32,688 nucleotides of DNA from a virus, in the IMG/VR virus record IMGVR_UViG_3300032931_000365, positions 1 to 32,688 of that record; one strand, 5' to 3'. A program made the position numbers and the translations under genes. The notes below the pieces were generated by a model. It ran no database searches and was not told where the DNA came from. It worked only from the letters and a program-made list of their open reading frames with translations. Shown one piece after another: positions 839 through 24,218 of this stretch; within the stretch, counting starts at the first letter, position 1; each line of letters opens with the position of its first letter.

Positions 839-1386
839 GTCCCTTCCCTTGTCGGGATCTTCTCGGCGATTTGTTTTATCCTTTCCCTTGTTTCGGCAAG
901 CTGTTTTAGTAATGTCGTTTCAATCTCTTCCGGTTTTCTAAAATCCGTTCGCAAAAGGGATTTGAAACATTCCATGAAATGCTTCCGATCAAAAGCCTCG
1001 CTTTTTGGATCAGTTTCCCCGAATCTTTGCCAACTGCCAAAGGCAATCCGAATAGTCTCATTAAGCAAAGGATCTCCGTGTTTTTCTTCCACCAAATGAA
1101 TGGCTGAACATGCTTCGTTCCATGCCCGGAGAGCGCGAATCTCATTCTTATCTTCTCTATTTCCTTCGCCAAGAAGCGTAAGAAATTCAAAGGGCAAAGG
1201 AAAGGTAGAGATTTTTTTTGTCCTCATAATGGTATCGGCAACGCCACAAATATCTGCAAATGAATAAGGAGATAGAACGTCAAAGTATATCGCAATCTTC
1301 TCTTTTGAAATCGGTTTCCCAGGTACAAAAATATCCTGAAAATATGCCATTAATTTAGCAAAGGCCATCTTGTCTTGATCCGTCAT
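835..1386 (-). CDS. Helicase-loader-like replication protein, 183 aa
   Basis: I place the start at ATG 1386, which overlaps the initiator stop (ATGA). The longer frame upstream is only the antisense reading of the initiator end. The N-terminal 70 residues (AFAKLMAYFQDIF, then ISKEKIAIYFDVLSPYS, ADTIMRTKKISTFPLPFEFL) match the all-helical pattern of phage helicase loaders of the G39P type and of small proteins next to initiators. The pattern is a short helix bundle, 'yfdvL', then a FP-containing turn. The C-terminus is a charged helix. Loaders of this kind deliver the replicative helicase to the origin. The assignment combines fold pattern with location directly behind the initiator; it is not proven by any catalytic motif. 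Confidence 0.55.
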   Translation of the reverse strand: MTDQDKMAFAKLMAYFQDIFVPGKPISKEKIAIYFDVLSPYSFADICGVADTIMRTKKISTFPLPFEFLTLLGEGNREDKNEIRALRAWNEACSAIHLVEEKHGDPLLNETIRIAFGSWQRFGETDPKSEAFDRKHFMECFKSLLRTDFRKPEEIETTLLKQLAETRERIKQIAEKIPTREGT

Positions 1387-6358: not shown

Positions 6359-6534
6359 CGGCTGCTTTCCTCTCTGGCTCTGGCTTCCCGATGATCTCGG
6401 GCCGTCCGGAAATCTCCGCGCTGCTTGAATAGCGCCAGGTTCCGCTTTTCCCGCCAGGTCAGCTTTGCGCTCTTTTGCTCGGCCTGAATCGCGGCTTCTT
6501 TTTTGAGAGCTTTTTTCAGGTGTCGTGCTTTCAT
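6355..6534 (-). CDS. Small basic helical protein, 59 aa
   Basis: A short frame starts at ATG 6534 and ends at TGA 6355. Both ends form ATGA overlaps with the neighbouring genes, so it exactly fills what would otherwise be a 172-base gap. The product is highly charged: KARHLKKALKKEAAIQAEQK at the N-terminus, then LTWREKRNLALFKQ and a run rich in Arg and Glu. It is predicted to be almost all helix and could bind nucleic acid. Function unknown. Confidence 0.65.
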   Translation of the reverse strand: MKARHLKKALKKEAAIQAEQKSAKLTWREKRNLALFKQRGDFRTARDHREARAREESSR

Positions 6535-6956
6535 CGGGTACCTTCCTTGTCGGCCGGGAAAACCCAGGGCTGGGTTTTCGAATACCAGCGATAACCTGCC
6601 CAGGGCTGGTGGGGATGGGTCACTAATTTGGAAATGGGTATCCCCGTTTCGACGCGAATCCGGCGCGGATCGTCATCGTCCGCCATGATCATCCCGCTTT
6701 TGGTCAAAAGCGCCAGCAGGCCACAGGGTCCTTCGCCGCCGTAGCCGACTTCGAATCCGTCCGTCTGCAAAATGATCCGGTTCCGGCCGTCTTTCGGATC
6801 CTGGAAATAAATCGACGTGATCAGGTTCCCGTCCTCCTGCCTCTCGACGTCGATTGCGAACGGCGAGGGGAGTCGCAGCTCCTTCATTTCTCTCTCGATA
6901 AATTCGGTCGAGAGGTGCGTGATGCCGCCCTTCTTGTCCTGGATAATTCTATCCAT
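6531..6956 (-). CDS. Hypothetical protein, 141 aa
   Basis: The start is ATG 6956, six bases after GAGGAGG that ends repeat element A. The protein looks folded, with alternating strands and helices (THLSTEFIEREMKEL, LITSIYFQDPKDGRNRIILQ, GEGPCGLLALLTKSGM) and an aromatic C-terminus containing HPHQPWAGYRWYSKTQPWVF. No known family is recognised. Translation is likely set by the structured element directly upstream. Confidence 0.7.
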   Translation of the reverse strand: MDRIIQDKKGGITHLSTEFIEREMKELRLPSPFAIDVERQEDGNLITSIYFQDPKDGRNRIILQTDGFEVGYGGEGPCGLLALLTKSGMIMADDDDPRRIRVETGIPISKLVTHPHQPWAGYRWYSKTQPWVFPADKEGTR

Positions 6957-6969
6957 GGTGTACCTCCTC

Positions 6970-7045
6970 GGGTCCCCGGCAAGCGGCCGGCACGGCCGCC
7001 CTGCTTTTCTCCCTCAGCGTTAAGCTCGGGCAAGGTGAGCGCCGT
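6970..7045 (-). repeat. Start-associated structured element, copy A
   Basis: The conserved words on the minus strand are GCCCGAGC, then GCTGAGGGAGAAAAGC, a hairpin GCGGCC with GGCCGC, and TTGCCGGGGACCC ending at the ribosome site GAGGAGG. The first hairpin is weak in this copy. The surrounding gap (6957 to 7137) is longer than the others and adds two further small hairpins (CCGAG with CTCGG, and CCGG with CCGG) and a TAGCCGAC tandem repeat. No gene is seen in the gap. Confidence 0.75.
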
Positions 7046-7137
7046 TTTATTCGGGCTGTCGGCTAGTCGGCTAGGCCATGTCCGGTTTTTCTCCGGCCTT
7101 GTTGACCCGAGGTAATTCTCGGCGCTCTACCTTCCGT

Positions 7138-7539
7138 TCATCTTCGATCCAGGGCTTCTGAAATCTGGCCCTGGGGGTCCAGGATCTTGGCCATCCGTTC
7201 CCGGATCGGCTTTCCAACCGGACCGTTTACGGCCAGGAAAAGCCGGATAAAAAGTGCGCGGCTGTAATCGTAGGCCGCGATCCCGGCTCCCCCGGCGTGT
7301 TCAAAAATCTCCGCCAGGGCGATCTCCGTGGCTTCCCGGATCGTCATCCATTTTCCGTTGATTTCGATTTTCTCGATGTCGACCTGTTCGAGGAGATAAA
7401 TCGGAATCATCGCCTGCCTCAGATCGTCCCGGGTGACGCCTTTCGGGTCCGCCGCGTTCATGGCCGCGATCTTCGCCTCCTGGCGCCGCTTCCGCTCGTT
7501 GTGCATGACCTGGATCTGTTTTTTTTCGTTCTCTGTCAT
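7138..7539 (-). CDS. Hypothetical protein, 133 aa
   Basis: I choose ATG 7539, six bases after AAGGAG. The longer frame upstream would read through repeat element B and is not credible. The N-terminus is a charged helix (TENEKKQIQVMHNERKRRQE), followed by DDLRQAMIPIYLLEQ, KIEINGKWMTIREATEIA and a C-terminal helical part with HAGGAGIAAYDYSRALFIRL. No family is recognised. It is one of the larger proteins of this operon and is preceded by a start-associated element. Confidence 0.7.
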   Translation of the reverse strand: MTENEKKQIQVMHNERKRRQEAKIAAMNAADPKGVTRDDLRQAMIPIYLLEQVDIEKIEINGKWMTIREATEIALAEIFEHAGGAGIAAYDYSRALFIRLFLAVNGPVGKPIRERMAKILDPQGQISEALDRR

Positions 7540-7553
7540 GGTTTTCTCCTTTG

Positions 7554-7624
7554 CGTCCCCGGCAAGCCTTTCGGCTCCGCTTTTCCCGCTCAGCGCATGG
7601 CTCGGGCTGGGGCCTCCTGGCCCC
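7554..7624 (-). repeat. Start-associated structured element, copy B
   Basis: Hairpin one is GGGGCC, AGGA loop, GGCCCC. Then come AGCCCGAGC, GCGCTGAGCGGGAAAAGC, hairpin two AGCC with a GAAA loop and GGCT, and TTGCCGGGGACGC before AAGGAG. Similarity to copy C continues through the ribosome site and start codon (GGAGAAAACCATGACA). It fills the whole gap between two genes. Confidence 0.8.
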
Positions 7625-7630
7625 GTTCTG

Positions 7631-7816
7631 TCAAAATGTCCACCAGCGTTTATTGCCGGTATTTTTGTCGGCAAGTTCGATCTCCAAAACTTCTCCGTCC
7701 TGGTGATTCCAATCGGTGACTTCGTATTCGAGGCCGTCGAGCTTCATTTTTGCCTCGATGTAGGCTTTGGCCGCTTCCAAAGCCTGGCGTTCGCGGCTGG
7801 TTTGTTTTCTTGCCAT
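7631..7816 (-). CDS. Small hypothetical protein, 61 aa
   Basis: The start is ATG 7816 behind GAGGAGG and a five-base spacer. It is separated by only ten bases from the gene before it, and this is the one non-overlapping junction in the operon without a repeat element. The protein has a charged helix (ERQALEAAKAYIEAKMKL) and a beta-rich C-terminus (EYEVTDWNHQDGEVLEIEL) ending RWWTF. No family is recognised. Confidence 0.65.
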   Translation of the reverse strand: MARKQTSRERQALEAAKAYIEAKMKLDGLEYEVTDWNHQDGEVLEIELADKNTGNKRWWTF

Positions 7817-7826
7817 GGTGGCCTCC

Positions 7827-8078
7827 TCATTCCCAAATAACCCGGCCCAGGCCGGTCCGGCCCTTGACCAGGCCAGCGAGCTTGTAGGCTTCTTCCCGGG
7901 CCATCCGGCTGGCCGTTGCTCTCCGGGTTTTCTTCCGGCTTTTGCATTCCGGGCAATCCGGGCAGGCTGTGTGGTGCCAGCGGACCGCCTCGACCCAGGT
8001 CGCGTATTCGGCCGTCTTTTCCATCGGCTTCAATCCGCAGACCGCCTGGATGTGCTCCAGCCATTTTTCTCTTGTCAT
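7827..8078 (-). CDS. Small cysteine-rich protein, 83 aa
   Basis: The ATG at 8078 follows AGGAG with a seven-base spacer at the end of element C; the upstream extension would read through that element. A HHTACPDCPEC cluster near residues 35 to 45 offers three Cys and two His for a metal site, and a lysine or arginine-rich run KSRKKTRRATASR follows. It could be a small zinc-binding protein that contacts nucleic acid. The rest is helical, with no family recognised. Confidence 0.65.
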   Translation of the reverse strand: MTREKWLEHIQAVCGLKPMEKTAEYATWVEAVRWHHTACPDCPECKSRKKTRRATASRMAREEAYKLAGLVKGRTGLGRVIWE

Positions 8079-8092
8079 GGTTTTTCTCCTGC

Positions 8093-8168
8093 CTCCCCGG
8101 CATCGGCTTTTGGCCGACCCCTTTTTCCGGCTCAAGGGCTCAGGCTCGGGCTAGGCCCTTTCGGGCCC
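8093..8168 (-). repeat. Start-associated structured element, copy C
   Basis: Hairpin one is GGCCC, GAAA loop, GGGCC. Then TAGCCCGAGC is followed by a more diverged middle (TTGAGCCGGAAAAAGG), hairpin two TCGGC, CAAAA loop, GCCGA, and TGCCGGGGA before AGGAG. This is the most diverged copy in the core, yet both hairpins keep perfect pairing. Confidence 0.75.
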
Positions 8169-8174
8169 TTCCGG

Positions 8175-8423
8175 TTATTCGATCCGGTGGATGACGACTT
8201 TGGTATCGCCATCGCCGTCGACAATCTGACCCATCGAAAATTCTTTTTCCGGGTAGAGCTTGTAATTGTCGGCGGGCTTCATCAGCTCGACCGTCTGCCA
8301 TTGCTTTTCGCTCAGCAGCTTTTTGGTGACCTCGTTCATTTCGTTCTCGCCGTATTCCTGTACTTCGTGGTGCTCCATGCAGGGCGAGGCATAAAAAAAA
8401 TGAATCAAAAAACGCTTTGCCAT
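8175..8423 (-). CDS. Hypothetical protein, 82 aa, first gene after the leader RNA
   Basis: The ATG at 8423 follows GGGGAG and a run of A residues at the end of element D. The N-terminus KRFLIHFFYASPCMEHHEV is followed by a helix (NEMNEVTKKLLSEKQWQTVEL) and an acidic strand region GQIVDGDGDTKVVIHRIE. There is no signal peptide or membrane segment that I trust. As the first gene of the transcript it should be well expressed. Function unknown. Confidence 0.7.
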   Translation of the reverse strand: MAKRFLIHFFYASPCMEHHEVQEYGENEMNEVTKKLLSEKQWQTVELMKPADNYKLYPEKEFSMGQIVDGDGDTKVVIHRIE

Positions 8424-8809
8424 TTTTTTTCTCCCCTTGGGTCCCCGGCAGGATCCTGGTGGATCCCCGCTTTTCTCCCTCAGCGCTGGGCTCGGGCTTG
8501 GGCGCCTTTCCTTGGCGCCCCCTCTTTCTCTTTTTTGTTTTGGCTTCGGCCGCCTCTTAGGCGTTTTCCCTTGGGCTTTACCGCCGCTTGGCTTATCCGC
8601 TTGTCTGCTGGGTCCCCGTGGCTTCAGGGGCTGGGGGGTCCCGATCCTTGGCAGGGTTGCGCTGCCTCTCGGCGTCAGGCCTGTGGGCCTTGGCTTTTTT
8701 TTCTTGGCCTCTCAGGGCCGGGTCGGTCTTGGTATCCCGCTCTCTGCGTTTCCCGGTCGGGCCTTCAAAGATCTGTCCCGCCCCCTCCCGGGGGGCGGTC
8801 TTAATTATC
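8424..8809 (-). ncRNA. Long structured leader RNA of the small-gene operon
   Basis: From the predicted start near 8809 to the first ATG at 8423 there are about 385 bases without a credible gene. The RNA begins with an 8-base-pair hairpin (CCGCCCCC, CGGGA loop, GGGGGCGG). It then has many short perfect hairpins with purine-rich loops, such as CGC-AGAGA-GCG, GGCC-CUGAGA-GGCC, AGGCC-CACA-GGCCU, GCC-GAGA-GGC and CGCC-UAAGA-GGCG. CCGGG can pair with CCCGG to close a multi-branch region. Long A-rich linkers separate them. The 3' end is element D. I cannot match it to a known RNA class. It may act as a leader, or be processed into a separate RNA. Confidence 0.55.
8439..8520 (-). repeat. Start-associated structured element, copy D
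   Basis: Hairpin one is GGGCGCC, a seven-base loop, GGCGCCC. Then AAGCCCGAGC, GCGCTGAGGGAGAAAAGC, hairpin two GGATCC, ACCA loop, GGATCC, and TGCCGGGGACCC before the ribosome site. It forms the 3' end of the long leader RNA. A degenerate partial match (CCACGGGGACCC, near 8611 to 8625) lies further upstream in the same leader. Confidence 0.8.
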
Positions 8810-8815
8810 AAGTAC

Positions 8816-8844
8816 ATGATAAAACAAATCGAAACGAATGTCAA
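8816..8844 (-). promoter_or_regulatory. Near-consensus sigma70 promoter of the small-gene operon
   Basis: On the minus strand TTGACA (8839 to 8844) is followed after exactly 17 bases by TATCAT (8816 to 8821), one mismatch from consensus. A second TGTCAA (plus strand, 8851 to 8856) lies 12 bases upstream, matching the repeat pattern in the regulator leader. A perfect 10-base palindrome GACGATCGTC sits at 8870 to 8879. These are candidate operator sites for the HTH regulator or a host factor. Confidence 0.85.
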
Positions 8845-21776: not shown

Positions 21777-22375
21777 GCGGGTTCCTTGATGATCAATCCG
21801 ATTCCCATTTGGAGTCCGTGGTCCGCCAGGCTGTCTTTCTTGAAAATAATCAGGGGGAGGTTTTTCTCTTTCTCCATGATCTCATTCCAGAATCGATAAA
21901 CGGCCCGCTCAAACGGGCCCTTGGGATCTATCCCATATATGTCGTGGAAGGCCGTTAGATGTTTTACGAGCGGGTCATAAAGTTCGTAGTCTAATTTCAC
22001 GCCTTCATAAGAATGATCCCCGTCGATAAAAAGAAGGTCGATCGATCTCCCTGCCAACCGGGTCTTTAATTTCTCGACCGTCCCGGCATCATGGGAATTC
22101 CCGGCGATCTCCGGGACGGAATGTTTGCTGTGAGCCGTTATGGGGGCAAAAGGTTCTCCGAGGTCGATCCCGATATATTCGGCGTTCAATAATTCTTTAT
22201 AAAATCGGCGTTGTATGCCGTTCCAAACTCCGATCTCTACGATGATCGGCCGGATGTATCTCGCTTCAAAATAGCTGGAAACAAATTCCAGGAAACATCG
22301 CCATTCTTTCGGGTCCTGACCGAGATGCATCTTCGGGAAAGTCGTCATCAATTCATCAAATTTTTTCAGGTTCAT
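21773..22375 (-). CDS. SAM-dependent methyltransferase, class I, 200 aa
   Basis: Motif I is VEIGVWNG (46 to 53), the acidic residue for the SAM ribose is in YIGIDLG (D71), and LLFIDGDHSYEGVKLDYEL (115 to 133) with HDI (144 to 146) is the typical pattern of the Methyltransf_24 and cephalosporin-hydroxylase-like group. Members often methylate sugars. Being locked by ATGA overlaps between two glycosyltransferase genes, it probably methylates the sugar they attach. A protein or nucleic acid target cannot be excluded. Confidence 0.75.
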   Translation of the reverse strand: MNLKKFDELMTTFPKMHLGQDPKEWRCFLEFVSSYFEARYIRPIIVEIGVWNGIQRRFYKELLNAEYIGIDLGEPFAPITAHSKHSVPEIAGNSHDAGTVEKLKTRLAGRSIDLLFIDGDHSYEGVKLDYELYDPLVKHLTAFHDIYGIDPKGPFERAVYRFWNEIMEKEKNLPLIIFKKDSLADHGLQMGIGLIIKEPA

Positions 22376-24000
22376 ACCAGCCCCTTATTTAAAACCCAGG
22401 TCCCTTCAATATCGGAAAGGTGTTTTGATACCCGGGATCGGCGGGTGCCCGCGTGGTCATGCCGGATGTATTCCCCGGCGATCTCTTTCCCGTTAAAATC
22501 TCCCAGCCCGGGAAATGCTTTTATGATTTTCCCTGCTAATCCTTTTTTATGAATGTCGAGCATCGTCAAATAACAGGGCGCTCCGTGGTGGACGTAAGGA
22601 TAAAATTTTCTGTAATTTTTTATATTGATCAATTGAAAATAGGGCTGGAGATATCTGACCCAGCCGTTGACGTGCCCGTGCGGCCCATAGACAAAACGGT
22701 TGAAATCCGCTTTCTCATCGATCTCCCCGACCCCGAATGTGTCCTCCTCCATCATCGCCCGCATTTCCTCGATCGGGCTTTTTAACATTTCGATGTCCGT
22801 ATCAAAAATCAGGGCCATCTCCGTCTTGGCCAGGTCAATCCCCATGGCCATCCCCCGGCCGTGGCCGATGTTGTATCCGAGGCTCTGGACCGCCGTGAGA
22901 TTTCCGGCCAGGCTCCGAGCGTAAGCAGCGCAAGGATCCCGGGCGTCGGATCCGTCGATAATAATAATCGGCATCGTGGGATGAAATTTCCGGACGGAAT
23001 TAAAAGCCCGCTCGAGCAGGTCCCTTGTGTTATGACTCACGGTGATCCCGGTGATGTCATCCGGAAAATATGATCGGTAGTTCTCGCCGGTTAATTTCCC
23101 GCTCAGAATATCCAGATAAATTTGCGAATCTCCCGGCGCCCATCTCTTGAGCATTGCCCGGTCGGCGCTGTCTTTAATATTTTGGTACATGGCCGGATTA
23201 TGGCCGATCCCGATTCCGGTCCGCCCAGGCAGACCTTTGATCCCTAAATAAAGTGGTTTATTGCTGTCGCTGAAACGAAATCCCCGCCTGCCCGCCTTCC
23301 GCCATATCCTCAAATCCACATCTGTTTTTTCCCTTTCTCGCAGGATTCCCTGAAGCTCCGGCAAAAACGATTTTCGGAAACCCGTTTCGGAAAGGCTGCA
23401 ATGTGAAAAATTTGAATGGGTACGGTAGCCGCCCGTGGGCAAATAATAATATTTCGCCTGGTTAATCCCGACGACTTCATGGGAATCAAGATGCCGGGCC
23501 ATTTCGTCGATATATCCCGGGGCATAGTAATCGTCGTCCTCCATGATCAGGATCTTGTCGCCCTTGATCAAAGGAAAAGCCGCCGCCAGATTGAGGCTAA
23601 GGGTATGCCTGGGATCGTCCGGCCGTGGTTCGCGCCGGATATATTGCATCGCAGCCGTGGGCCTGAGCGGTGCTTTGCCGTCATCGACTACCAGCCATTG
23701 GTCCGGCTTCCGGGTCTGGTTCGCCATCCAATGTAGGCAAAGCGCAAAGGCCAGGGGCCTGTCTCCGGTCGGGGTGATGACCGTAATCGTCGGCCCGCCC
23801 GGCGCTATTGGCCTCGGGGCTGGGCGATTGCCCGGGCCCGGGGCTACAAAGCCGCCCAGCCAGGGCAGGCCGCCCGCCGTCTTTCTTACGTAAAGCGATC
23901 CGGCTGGGGGTCGCAACCGTGCCAATCGCCCGTCATGGGGCATCCTGGGCCGATTTCCTCCTTTCGGCTTGGGCATCTTTAGCCTGGTGGTCGATATCAT
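22372..24000 (-). CDS. Two-domain glycosyltransferase, 542 aa
   Basis: I choose ATG 24000, which overlaps the mini-protein stop (ATGA). A Pro and Gly-rich N-terminus (about 70 residues) precedes two GT-A modules. The first starts ITVITPTGDRP (72 on), with IMEDDDYY (D155 to D157) as metal motif. The second starts ITGITVSHNTRDLL (316 on), with IFDTDIEM (D400, D402). Two tandem transferases in one chain suggest a two-sugar unit or a repeated step. The second module contains NIGHGRGMAMGIDLAKTE, common in family 2 proteins. Acceptor and sugar are unknown. It is the largest gene of the sugar block. Confidence 0.8.
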   Translation of the reverse strand: MISTTRLKMPKPKGGNRPRMPHDGRLARLRPPAGSLYVRKTAGGLPWLGGFVAPGPGNRPAPRPIAPGGPTITVITPTGDRPLAFALCLHWMANQTRKPDQWLVVDDGKAPLRPTAAMQYIRREPRPDDPRHTLSLNLAAAFPLIKGDKILIMEDDDYYAPGYIDEMARHLDSHEVVGINQAKYYYLPTGGYRTHSNFSHCSLSETGFRKSFLPELQGILREREKTDVDLRIWRKAGRRGFRFSDSNKPLYLGIKGLPGRTGIGIGHNPAMYQNIKDSADRAMLKRWAPGDSQIYLDILSGKLTGENYRSYFPDDITGITVSHNTRDLLERAFNSVRKFHPTMPIIIIDGSDARDPCAAYARSLAGNLTAVQSLGYNIGHGRGMAMGIDLAKTEMALIFDTDIEMLKSPIEEMRAMMEEDTFGVGEIDEKADFNRFVYGPHGHVNGWVRYLQPYFQLINIKNYRKFYPYVHHGAPCYLTMLDIHKKGLAGKIIKAFPGLGDFNGKEIAGEYIRHDHAGTRRSRVSKHLSDIEGTWVLNKGLV

Positions 24001-24218
24001 CTTATCCCTATTTGGTGTCCGCAGCGCAGGCATTTGGCCGCTCGCTTATAACCGGCTTTCTCCAGCCAGCAGGGTGCCCGTCTGATAAACATCGCCGTCC
24101 CATCCCGGGGACAAGGTTCGGTATGGAGCTGGAGTCCCATGGCTTCAATCTGCTGGGTTGCGGTTTTCTTCGCTTGCTCCGGCTGGATTTGTATCTTCAG
24201 GTCGCCGGTCGAAATCAT
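23997..24218 (-). CDS. Cys-rich mini-protein, 73 aa
   Basis: ATG 24218 has a GAGGAGG site with a six-base spacer. The gene begins 74 bases inside the end of the DUF115-like gene, a long overlap, and ends with ATGA into the large transferase. Cysteines near residue 36 (EPCPRDG), residue 50 (APCW) and at the end (CLRCGHQIG) could form a zinc ribbon. No family is recognised. Its position inside the sugar block suggests an assisting role. Confidence 0.55.
   Translation of the reverse strand: MISTGDLKIQIQPEQAKKTATQQIEAMGLQLHTEPCPRDGTAMFIRRAPCWLEKAGYKRAAKCLRCGHQIGIR

Follow-up and report, generated by a model that had tools for sequence, protein, structure and literature searches.

A compact pseudoknotted RNA element before small genes of uncultured phages, a candidate class of self-cleaving ribozyme

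What kind of element occupies the long gaps of a small-gene operon in an uncultured tailed phage, and what might it do there? The stretch of DNA analysed, referred to hereafter as the window, corresponds to an entire IMG/VR record of 32,688 bases, the right part of which carries the terminase, portal and capsid genes. Beyond the terminase, no cultured relatives of this phage were identified, and a blastn comparison of the region with 50,697 phage records gave no match. A gene for a family 2 glycosyltransferase (PF00535) occurs at 22372-24033 (minus strand), amid the phage structural genes. The operon of small genes lies on the minus strand and has its 5' end at a sigma-70-like promoter (8844-8816), whose boxes are identical in a related phage. 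Its features are listed in the order of transcription, P0, P2 and P3 being the helices of the core of each element copy (E4 to E1), loop 2 the loop of P2, and P1 the hairpin or stem located upstream.

8816..8844, minus strand: sigma-70-like promoter TTGACA-17-TATCAT (11/12), likely start of the operon transcript
8500..8520, minus strand: P1, upstream hairpin of E4, GGGCGCC/GGCGCCC
8439..8497, minus strand: core of E4, from G1 to the end of the pseudoknot; P0 8490-8496/8444-8449, P2 8482-8485/8468-8471, P3 8461-8467/8450-8456, loop 2 8472-8481, pseudoknot 8477-8479/8439-8441
8178..8423, minus strand: gene 1, 82 aa, MAKRFLIHFF..., directly 3' of E4
8154..8168, minus strand: P1, upstream hairpin of E3
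8091..8151, minus strand: core of E3; P0 8144-8150/8096-8101, P2 8134-8138/8119-8123, P3 8113-8118/8102-8107, loop 2 8124-8133, pseudoknot tail 8091-8093
7830..8078, minus strand: gene 2, 83 aa, MTREKWLEHI..., Cys-rich, 3' of E3
7634..7816, minus strand: gene 3, 61 aa, preceded by a 10-nt gap without element
7609..7624, minus strand: P1, upstream hairpin of E2
7553..7607, minus strand: core of E2; P0 7600-7606/7558-7563, P2 7592-7595/7578-7581, P3 7573-7577/7564-7568, loop 2 7582-7591, pseudoknot tail 7553-7555
7141..7539, minus strand: gene 4, 133 aa, MTENEKKQIQ..., 3' of E2
7037..7127, minus strand: P1, upstream stem of E1, 8 bp (7037-7044/7120-7127), enclosing a 75-nt insert
6970..7031, minus strand: core of E1; P0 7024-7030/6975-6980, P2 7016-7019/7002-7005 (one C/A mismatch), P3 6994-7001/6981-6988, loop 2 7006-7015, pseudoknot tail 6970-6972
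6534..6956, minus strand: gene 5, 141 aa, MDRIIQDK..., 3' of E1

The genes downstream of gene 5 overlap and are devoid of the element, and no Pfam family was found above cut-off for gene 1. The operon leader, i.e., the approximately 280 nt separating the promoter from E4 (8530-8815, minus strand), is nearly identical in phage L006, a conservation clearly higher than that of the operon protein compared between the two phages (64% identity). No Rfam match was obtained for this leader and a convincing reading frame is absent from it in the window; it is possibly a second structured RNA or an antitermination leader RNA.

The four copies, which an earlier note on this DNA had placed at 6970, 7554, 8093 and 8439, all occur there on the minus strand. 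The sequence GCCCGAGC is found 6 times in the window for 1.8 expected occurrences, at least 6 being reached in 0 of 100 shuffles, and matches to the full three-box pattern number 4, against none for its reversed control. The arms reported for hairpin two (GCGGCC/GGCCGC, AGCC/GGCT, TCGGC/GCCGA and GGATCC/GGATCC) were recovered in all four copies. With respect to the two hairpins said to flank each core, hairpin two is present throughout, whereas hairpin one lies near the core in three copies only and consists, in E1, of the 8-bp stem around the 75-nt insert. All four copies directly precede a Shine-Dalgarno (SD) site, as had been proposed from their ending at the ribosome site of the next gene, and their distribution conforms to the rule of one copy per long gap and none at coupled genes: judging from the coordinates, the leader and the gaps of 96, 91 and 181 nt are filled, and the 10-nt gap (7826-7817) and the overlapping downstream genes are empty. 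P0, P2 (CGCU/AGCG, CCCUU/AAGGG), the pseudoknot between loop 2 and the 3' tail, and the hammerheads occupying the same slot in a related system were all absent from that note, which offered no mechanism beyond 'RNA'.

The four window copies are one structured RNA element, ~60 nt long and compact, which constitutes a new RNA class and whose structure is near certain. Its architecture consists of a three-way junction P0/P2/P3, returned by RNAalifold on the first 11 copies and by single-sequence folding of the core in 9 out of 12, completed by a pseudoknot associating loop 2 with the strand after P0. The closing stem P0, of 6-7 bp, reads CCCG-(A)-GC with GC-CGGG; P2 reads CGCU/AGCG and variants, and bears a loop 2 of the type GAG-NN-R-GAAA; the hairpin P3 is variable, with a G-U or G-C closing pair. 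The pseudoknot, seen by reading the sequences, pairs G-N-N of loop 2 with three bases starting two nucleotides past P0, comprises 3-5 bp depending on the copy, and lies shortly upstream of the SD site. Some unpaired bases are invariant, namely G1, the GA and GAAA of loop 2, and the G after P0. A hairpin or a tRNA usually occurs just upstream of the element, the hairpin being consistently present but only loosely linked to the core (0-6 nt). The sequence GCAGGGGGTGCGAAACCCCCTC was observed twice in phage L165, at 1080-1240 (plus strand), one of the two occurrences forming the hairpin 5' of an element copy.

Repeated, GC-rich sequences with palindromic arms could also be a DNA-level repeat, such as an operator or a mobile palindrome, in which the hairpins would be incidental, and the fold energies are indeed no better than those of shuffles (z-scores of the core about 0, without significance). 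Since the region is GC-rich, energies no lower than those of shuffles can be understood, but the case for the fold consequently stands on covariation. In an alignment of the 14 model-detected copies, P0, P2, P3 and the pseudoknot all covary, with double changes in 12 of 18 pairs and 96.4% of the cells paired; not one of 500 shuffles matched any of five covariation measures, and sliding the partner by one column made the pairing collapse from 96% to 40-57%. This alignment was fitted to a model already containing part of the structure, and was checked by a hand-counted table of 15 copies and by a permutation test. A first MAFFT alignment including the divergent copies had misplaced P3 and the 3' arm, and the model alignment was used instead. 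The pseudoknot combinations (GG/CC, CC/GG, CG/CG and GC/GC) are Watson-Crick in every copy, complementarity being observed in 12/12 of the first copies (permutation p = 24/40320 over 8 independent groups). Compensatory changes thus affect four helices, including a pseudoknot which would be meaningless in duplex DNA, and every firm copy has the sense orientation and immediately precedes a start codon. The reading as a DNA repeat is, for practical purposes, refuted by this covariation, and the proposal of an RNA rather than a DNA site is strongly supported.

Building a covariance model and searching related phages for further copies was the refutation test that the earlier note had set for itself, and the element passed it. 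Scanning 2.9 million viral contigs for sequence patterns, combined with covariance models, brought the total to 15 firm copies and a tentative one, 11 of the firm copies lying outside the window in four other uncultured phages, so that five phages, all uncultured, are the only element-bearing records. The pattern scans identified five copies in L006, in an operon orthologous to that of the window, and one copy each in L005 and L007. A covariance model built from 11 copies (R1), which were rescored at 60-76 bits, blindly matched a 12th copy in L007 at 51.9 bits, the next best match scoring 12.5 bits (16.1 over whole records). In this copy, P0 is changed on both sides (a compensatory G-C to C-G) and the U-A of P2 is replaced by a closing C-G pair. 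The divergent phage L165 was found with a pattern fixed solely in loop 2 and the tail, and contains two copies scored by R1 at 34.1 and 29.5 bits. A third L165 copy was spotted by eye and then scored 23.1 bits with a second model made from 14 copies (R2), close to the 22.2 bits of pattern-selected chance loci; this copy therefore rests on its 7-bp P0, its pseudoknot extended to 5 bp (GCCAC/GUGGC) and its position. In L165, P0 forms a continuous helix of 7 bp differing at most positions (CCUCUGC/GCAGAGG, CCUCCGC/GCGGGGG and CUCUCAC/GUGAGAG). The tentative 16th candidate, at L133 7441-7505 (minus strand; 22.3 bits), precedes the first gene of the L007 operon and possesses a P0 CUCUCGC/GCGAGAG and a pseudoknot GGCGC/GCGCC.

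Outside these five records the searches remained negative. In 84,980 prokaryote species genomes, the strict pattern was matched 38 times, never by a true copy: all these matches are attributed to chance since P2 fails to form (0-2 bp). Among the viral pattern matches, L008-L052, L058-L095, L127, L128 and most of L145-L171 were discarded, P2 or the remaining fold being absent. By blastn, a weak means of detection here, no element copy emerged in cultured phages; the weak matches in Escherichia, Xanthomonas and other phages are short and were not scored by R2, and two of them correspond to a terminator-like hairpin followed by a T run. No copy was detected by model in the tail-protein relatives G004, G005, G006, G008, G009, G010, G011 and G012; in a sister phage, the orthologous gene, which encodes a 72% identical protein, is not accompanied by the element. 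Proteins of L165 and L007 show weak similarity to actinophage and Microcoleus phage proteins. As exact patterns were required by the scans, more divergent relatives would have escaped.

The surroundings of the copies provide the main indications as to their function. The operon of L007 (record G003) comprises ~13 small genes starting from a promoter-like TTGACA box near L133 7850. Its successive long gaps are occupied by the tentative variant, by type II hammerheads (four) and by the two firm copies, each of these RNAs being in sense orientation and immediately 5' of an SD site and start codon. Two of these hammerheads exceed the Rfam cut-off (46.3 and 37.7 bits) and two fall below it (31.6 and 29.4 bits). 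Two hammerheads over the cut-off also precede small genes in the sister phage G014, and another one (L120 5331-5402) precedes a small gene in G010, a few kb downstream of the tail gene, in the region where the window carries its operon; G010 had been retrieved solely for a tail protein 38% identical to that of the window. No over-cut-off hammerhead was found in 47 unrelated viral records (0/47). The third L165 copy begins 12 nt past a tRNA-Cys. In another gap of G014, an unassigned three-way-junction-like fold UCGGCCC/GGGCCGA around two hairpins was also observed before an SD site (L125 6690-6800, plus strand), with a different core.

Hammerheads arranged in series between prophage genes cleave in vitro and have been proposed to process transcripts into single-gene mRNAs, one variant being located 13 nt upstream of a start codon (PMC3088659), and the HDV-like theta ribozymes of phages are located at tRNAs (PMC10879173). 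By the same logic, the element becomes a ribozyme candidate. It resembles the small-ribozyme classes in its size (~60 nt), its junction and pseudoknot, its variable helices and its conserved unpaired bases, and fulfils the criterion of a compact conserved core with a junction and/or pseudoknot near known ribozymes. The fold, the covariation, the position, the strand and the coexistence with hammerheads are observed; catalysis, the cleavage site and the purpose of cleavage are inferred. The element is accordingly read as a new class of small self-cleaving ribozyme cutting polycistronic phage mRNA into single-gene messages, with a probability of roughly 0.55, kept at this level because the logic of association is fallible: of the non-hammerhead HRIMA motifs found beside ribozymes, 10/10 failed to cleave when tested (PMC10085705). 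The long phage transcript would be cut in each non-coupled gap, in such a way that each gene or coupled gene block would gain its own mRNA starting just before its SD site, the upstream hairpin staying on the previous message as a 3' cap. The active site would be built from the invariant unpaired bases; as to the position of the cut, the simplest guess puts it close to where the upstream hairpin meets G1. Against this reading, the computed evidence shows no catalysis, cleavage has not been observed, no conserved scissile dinucleotide stands out, hammerheads are present in only 1 of the 5 element-bearing records, and the ortholog of the sister phage lacks the element.

None of the known RNAs compared accounts for the element. 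No match was obtained among the 4227 families of Rfam 15 for the window or divergent copies; the hammerhead models gave none at the gathering cut-off or at E values up to 5, and the twister, twister sister and hatchet models gave none either, although the same library does recognise the neighbouring hammerheads. The type II hammerhead (RF02276) shares with the element its slot before the SD site of small phage genes, in one case within a single operon, a three-way junction, a pseudoknot joining the loop of a hairpin to the 3' tail, and a similar size. However, the element lacks the CUGANGA core (UGAG-NN, with variable NN, stands in its place) and the GAAA of the junction, and its pseudoknot uses the loop of the first hairpin. 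The CUGANGA/GAAA/NUH^ core is absent, the GAG-NN-R-GAAA of loop 2 lies inside a hairpin, and the G8-equivalent is a variable base engaged in the pseudoknot. The element is therefore no hammerhead, and its core sequence does not fit a permuted hammerhead either (PMC10085705); judged by its slot, its closest counterpart is the type II hammerhead, a class to which it nonetheless does not belong. HDV-like and theta ribozymes are likewise small, pseudoknotted and found in phages, one element copy lies behind a tRNA, and the short pseudoknot strand following the closing stem recalls the P1.1 of HDV. An HDV-like fold requires a nested double pseudoknot with P2 and P4 (P4 may be lost) and a catalytic C in J4/2, whereas the element has neither P2 nor P4 in this sense, no such J4/2, and an extra hairpin P3; no strand 3' of its pseudoknot is conserved, a spacer and the SD site being all that follows, and Rfam gives no match. 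In the pistol ribozyme, too, a hairpin loop reaches over a second hairpin to pair with a strand further 3', but this pseudoknot has 6 bp, no P0 encloses the two hairpins, and cleavage takes place in the P2/P3 junction; the 3-5 bp pseudoknot, the additional P0 and the lack of an Rfam match rule it out. The start-associated sequences of cluster K mycobacteriophages are similarly repeated at the starts of several phage genes, SAS being a 13-bp sequence including the SD and ESAS a 17-bp inverted repeat with a conserved sequence, for which neither junction nor pseudoknot is described (PMC3203893). What is conserved in the element is situated 5' of the SD and concerns pairing rather than arm sequence, which bears out the distinction drawn earlier from the SAS type.

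The position next to the SD site equally suits a translational switch. Small riboswitches typically have a pseudoknot adjoining the SD, and the element might be a riboswitch or the binding site of a phage or host protein, gating ribosome entry and coordinating several phage genes by one signal; multiple copies per operon would then make a regulon. Every copy ends near an SD site, the first SD-like match occurring 0-7 nt past the pseudoknot in the 12 first copies and about 10-16 nt past it in L165. This spacing varies, however, and L006a has an extra hairpin between the element and the likely start, so that occlusion does not appear to be built in. The genes downstream of the copies have no recognised common function, as expected for processing and not for metabolite control, no riboswitch or leader of Rfam matches even the divergent copies, and hammerheads, which use this slot as well, have no regulatory role by default. 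Translational control consequently remains possible but rather unlikely. Less probable still is a non-catalytic role in processing or stability, in which the messages would be separated and protected by a structured 5' end that blocks exonucleases or is cut at the upstream hairpin by a host RNase. A hairpin and a compact pseudoknot before each gene would serve this purpose, a tRNA replaces the hairpin in one copy, and the slot shared with hammerheads shows merely that processing is wanted there. The unpaired bases (GAG..GAAA of loop 2, G1 and the G after P0) are nevertheless kept in divergent copies, which we infer to be more than a nuclease block or an RNase III site would need. The self-cleaving ribozyme thus remains the preferred reading. 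Its fuller version, a class with a three-way junction locked by a loop-to-tail pseudoknot, so far restricted to uncultured phages and used interchangeably with hammerheads to cut polycistronic mRNA into single-gene messages and to trim a tRNA, is given even odds, cleavage being again an inference.

The last several ribozyme classes were discovered by searching beside known ones. Natural self-cleaving classes are few, nine being counted in a 2017 review (PMC6154101). In this respect, a compact, strongly covarying fold which has its operon and its slot in common with hammerheads and is absent from Rfam offers a direct and cheap test case. If the element cleaves, it would represent an additional ribozyme class and back the idea that RNA catalysts serve some phages to divide their messages; failing cleavage, it would still be a new class of structured RNA marking the starts of phage genes.
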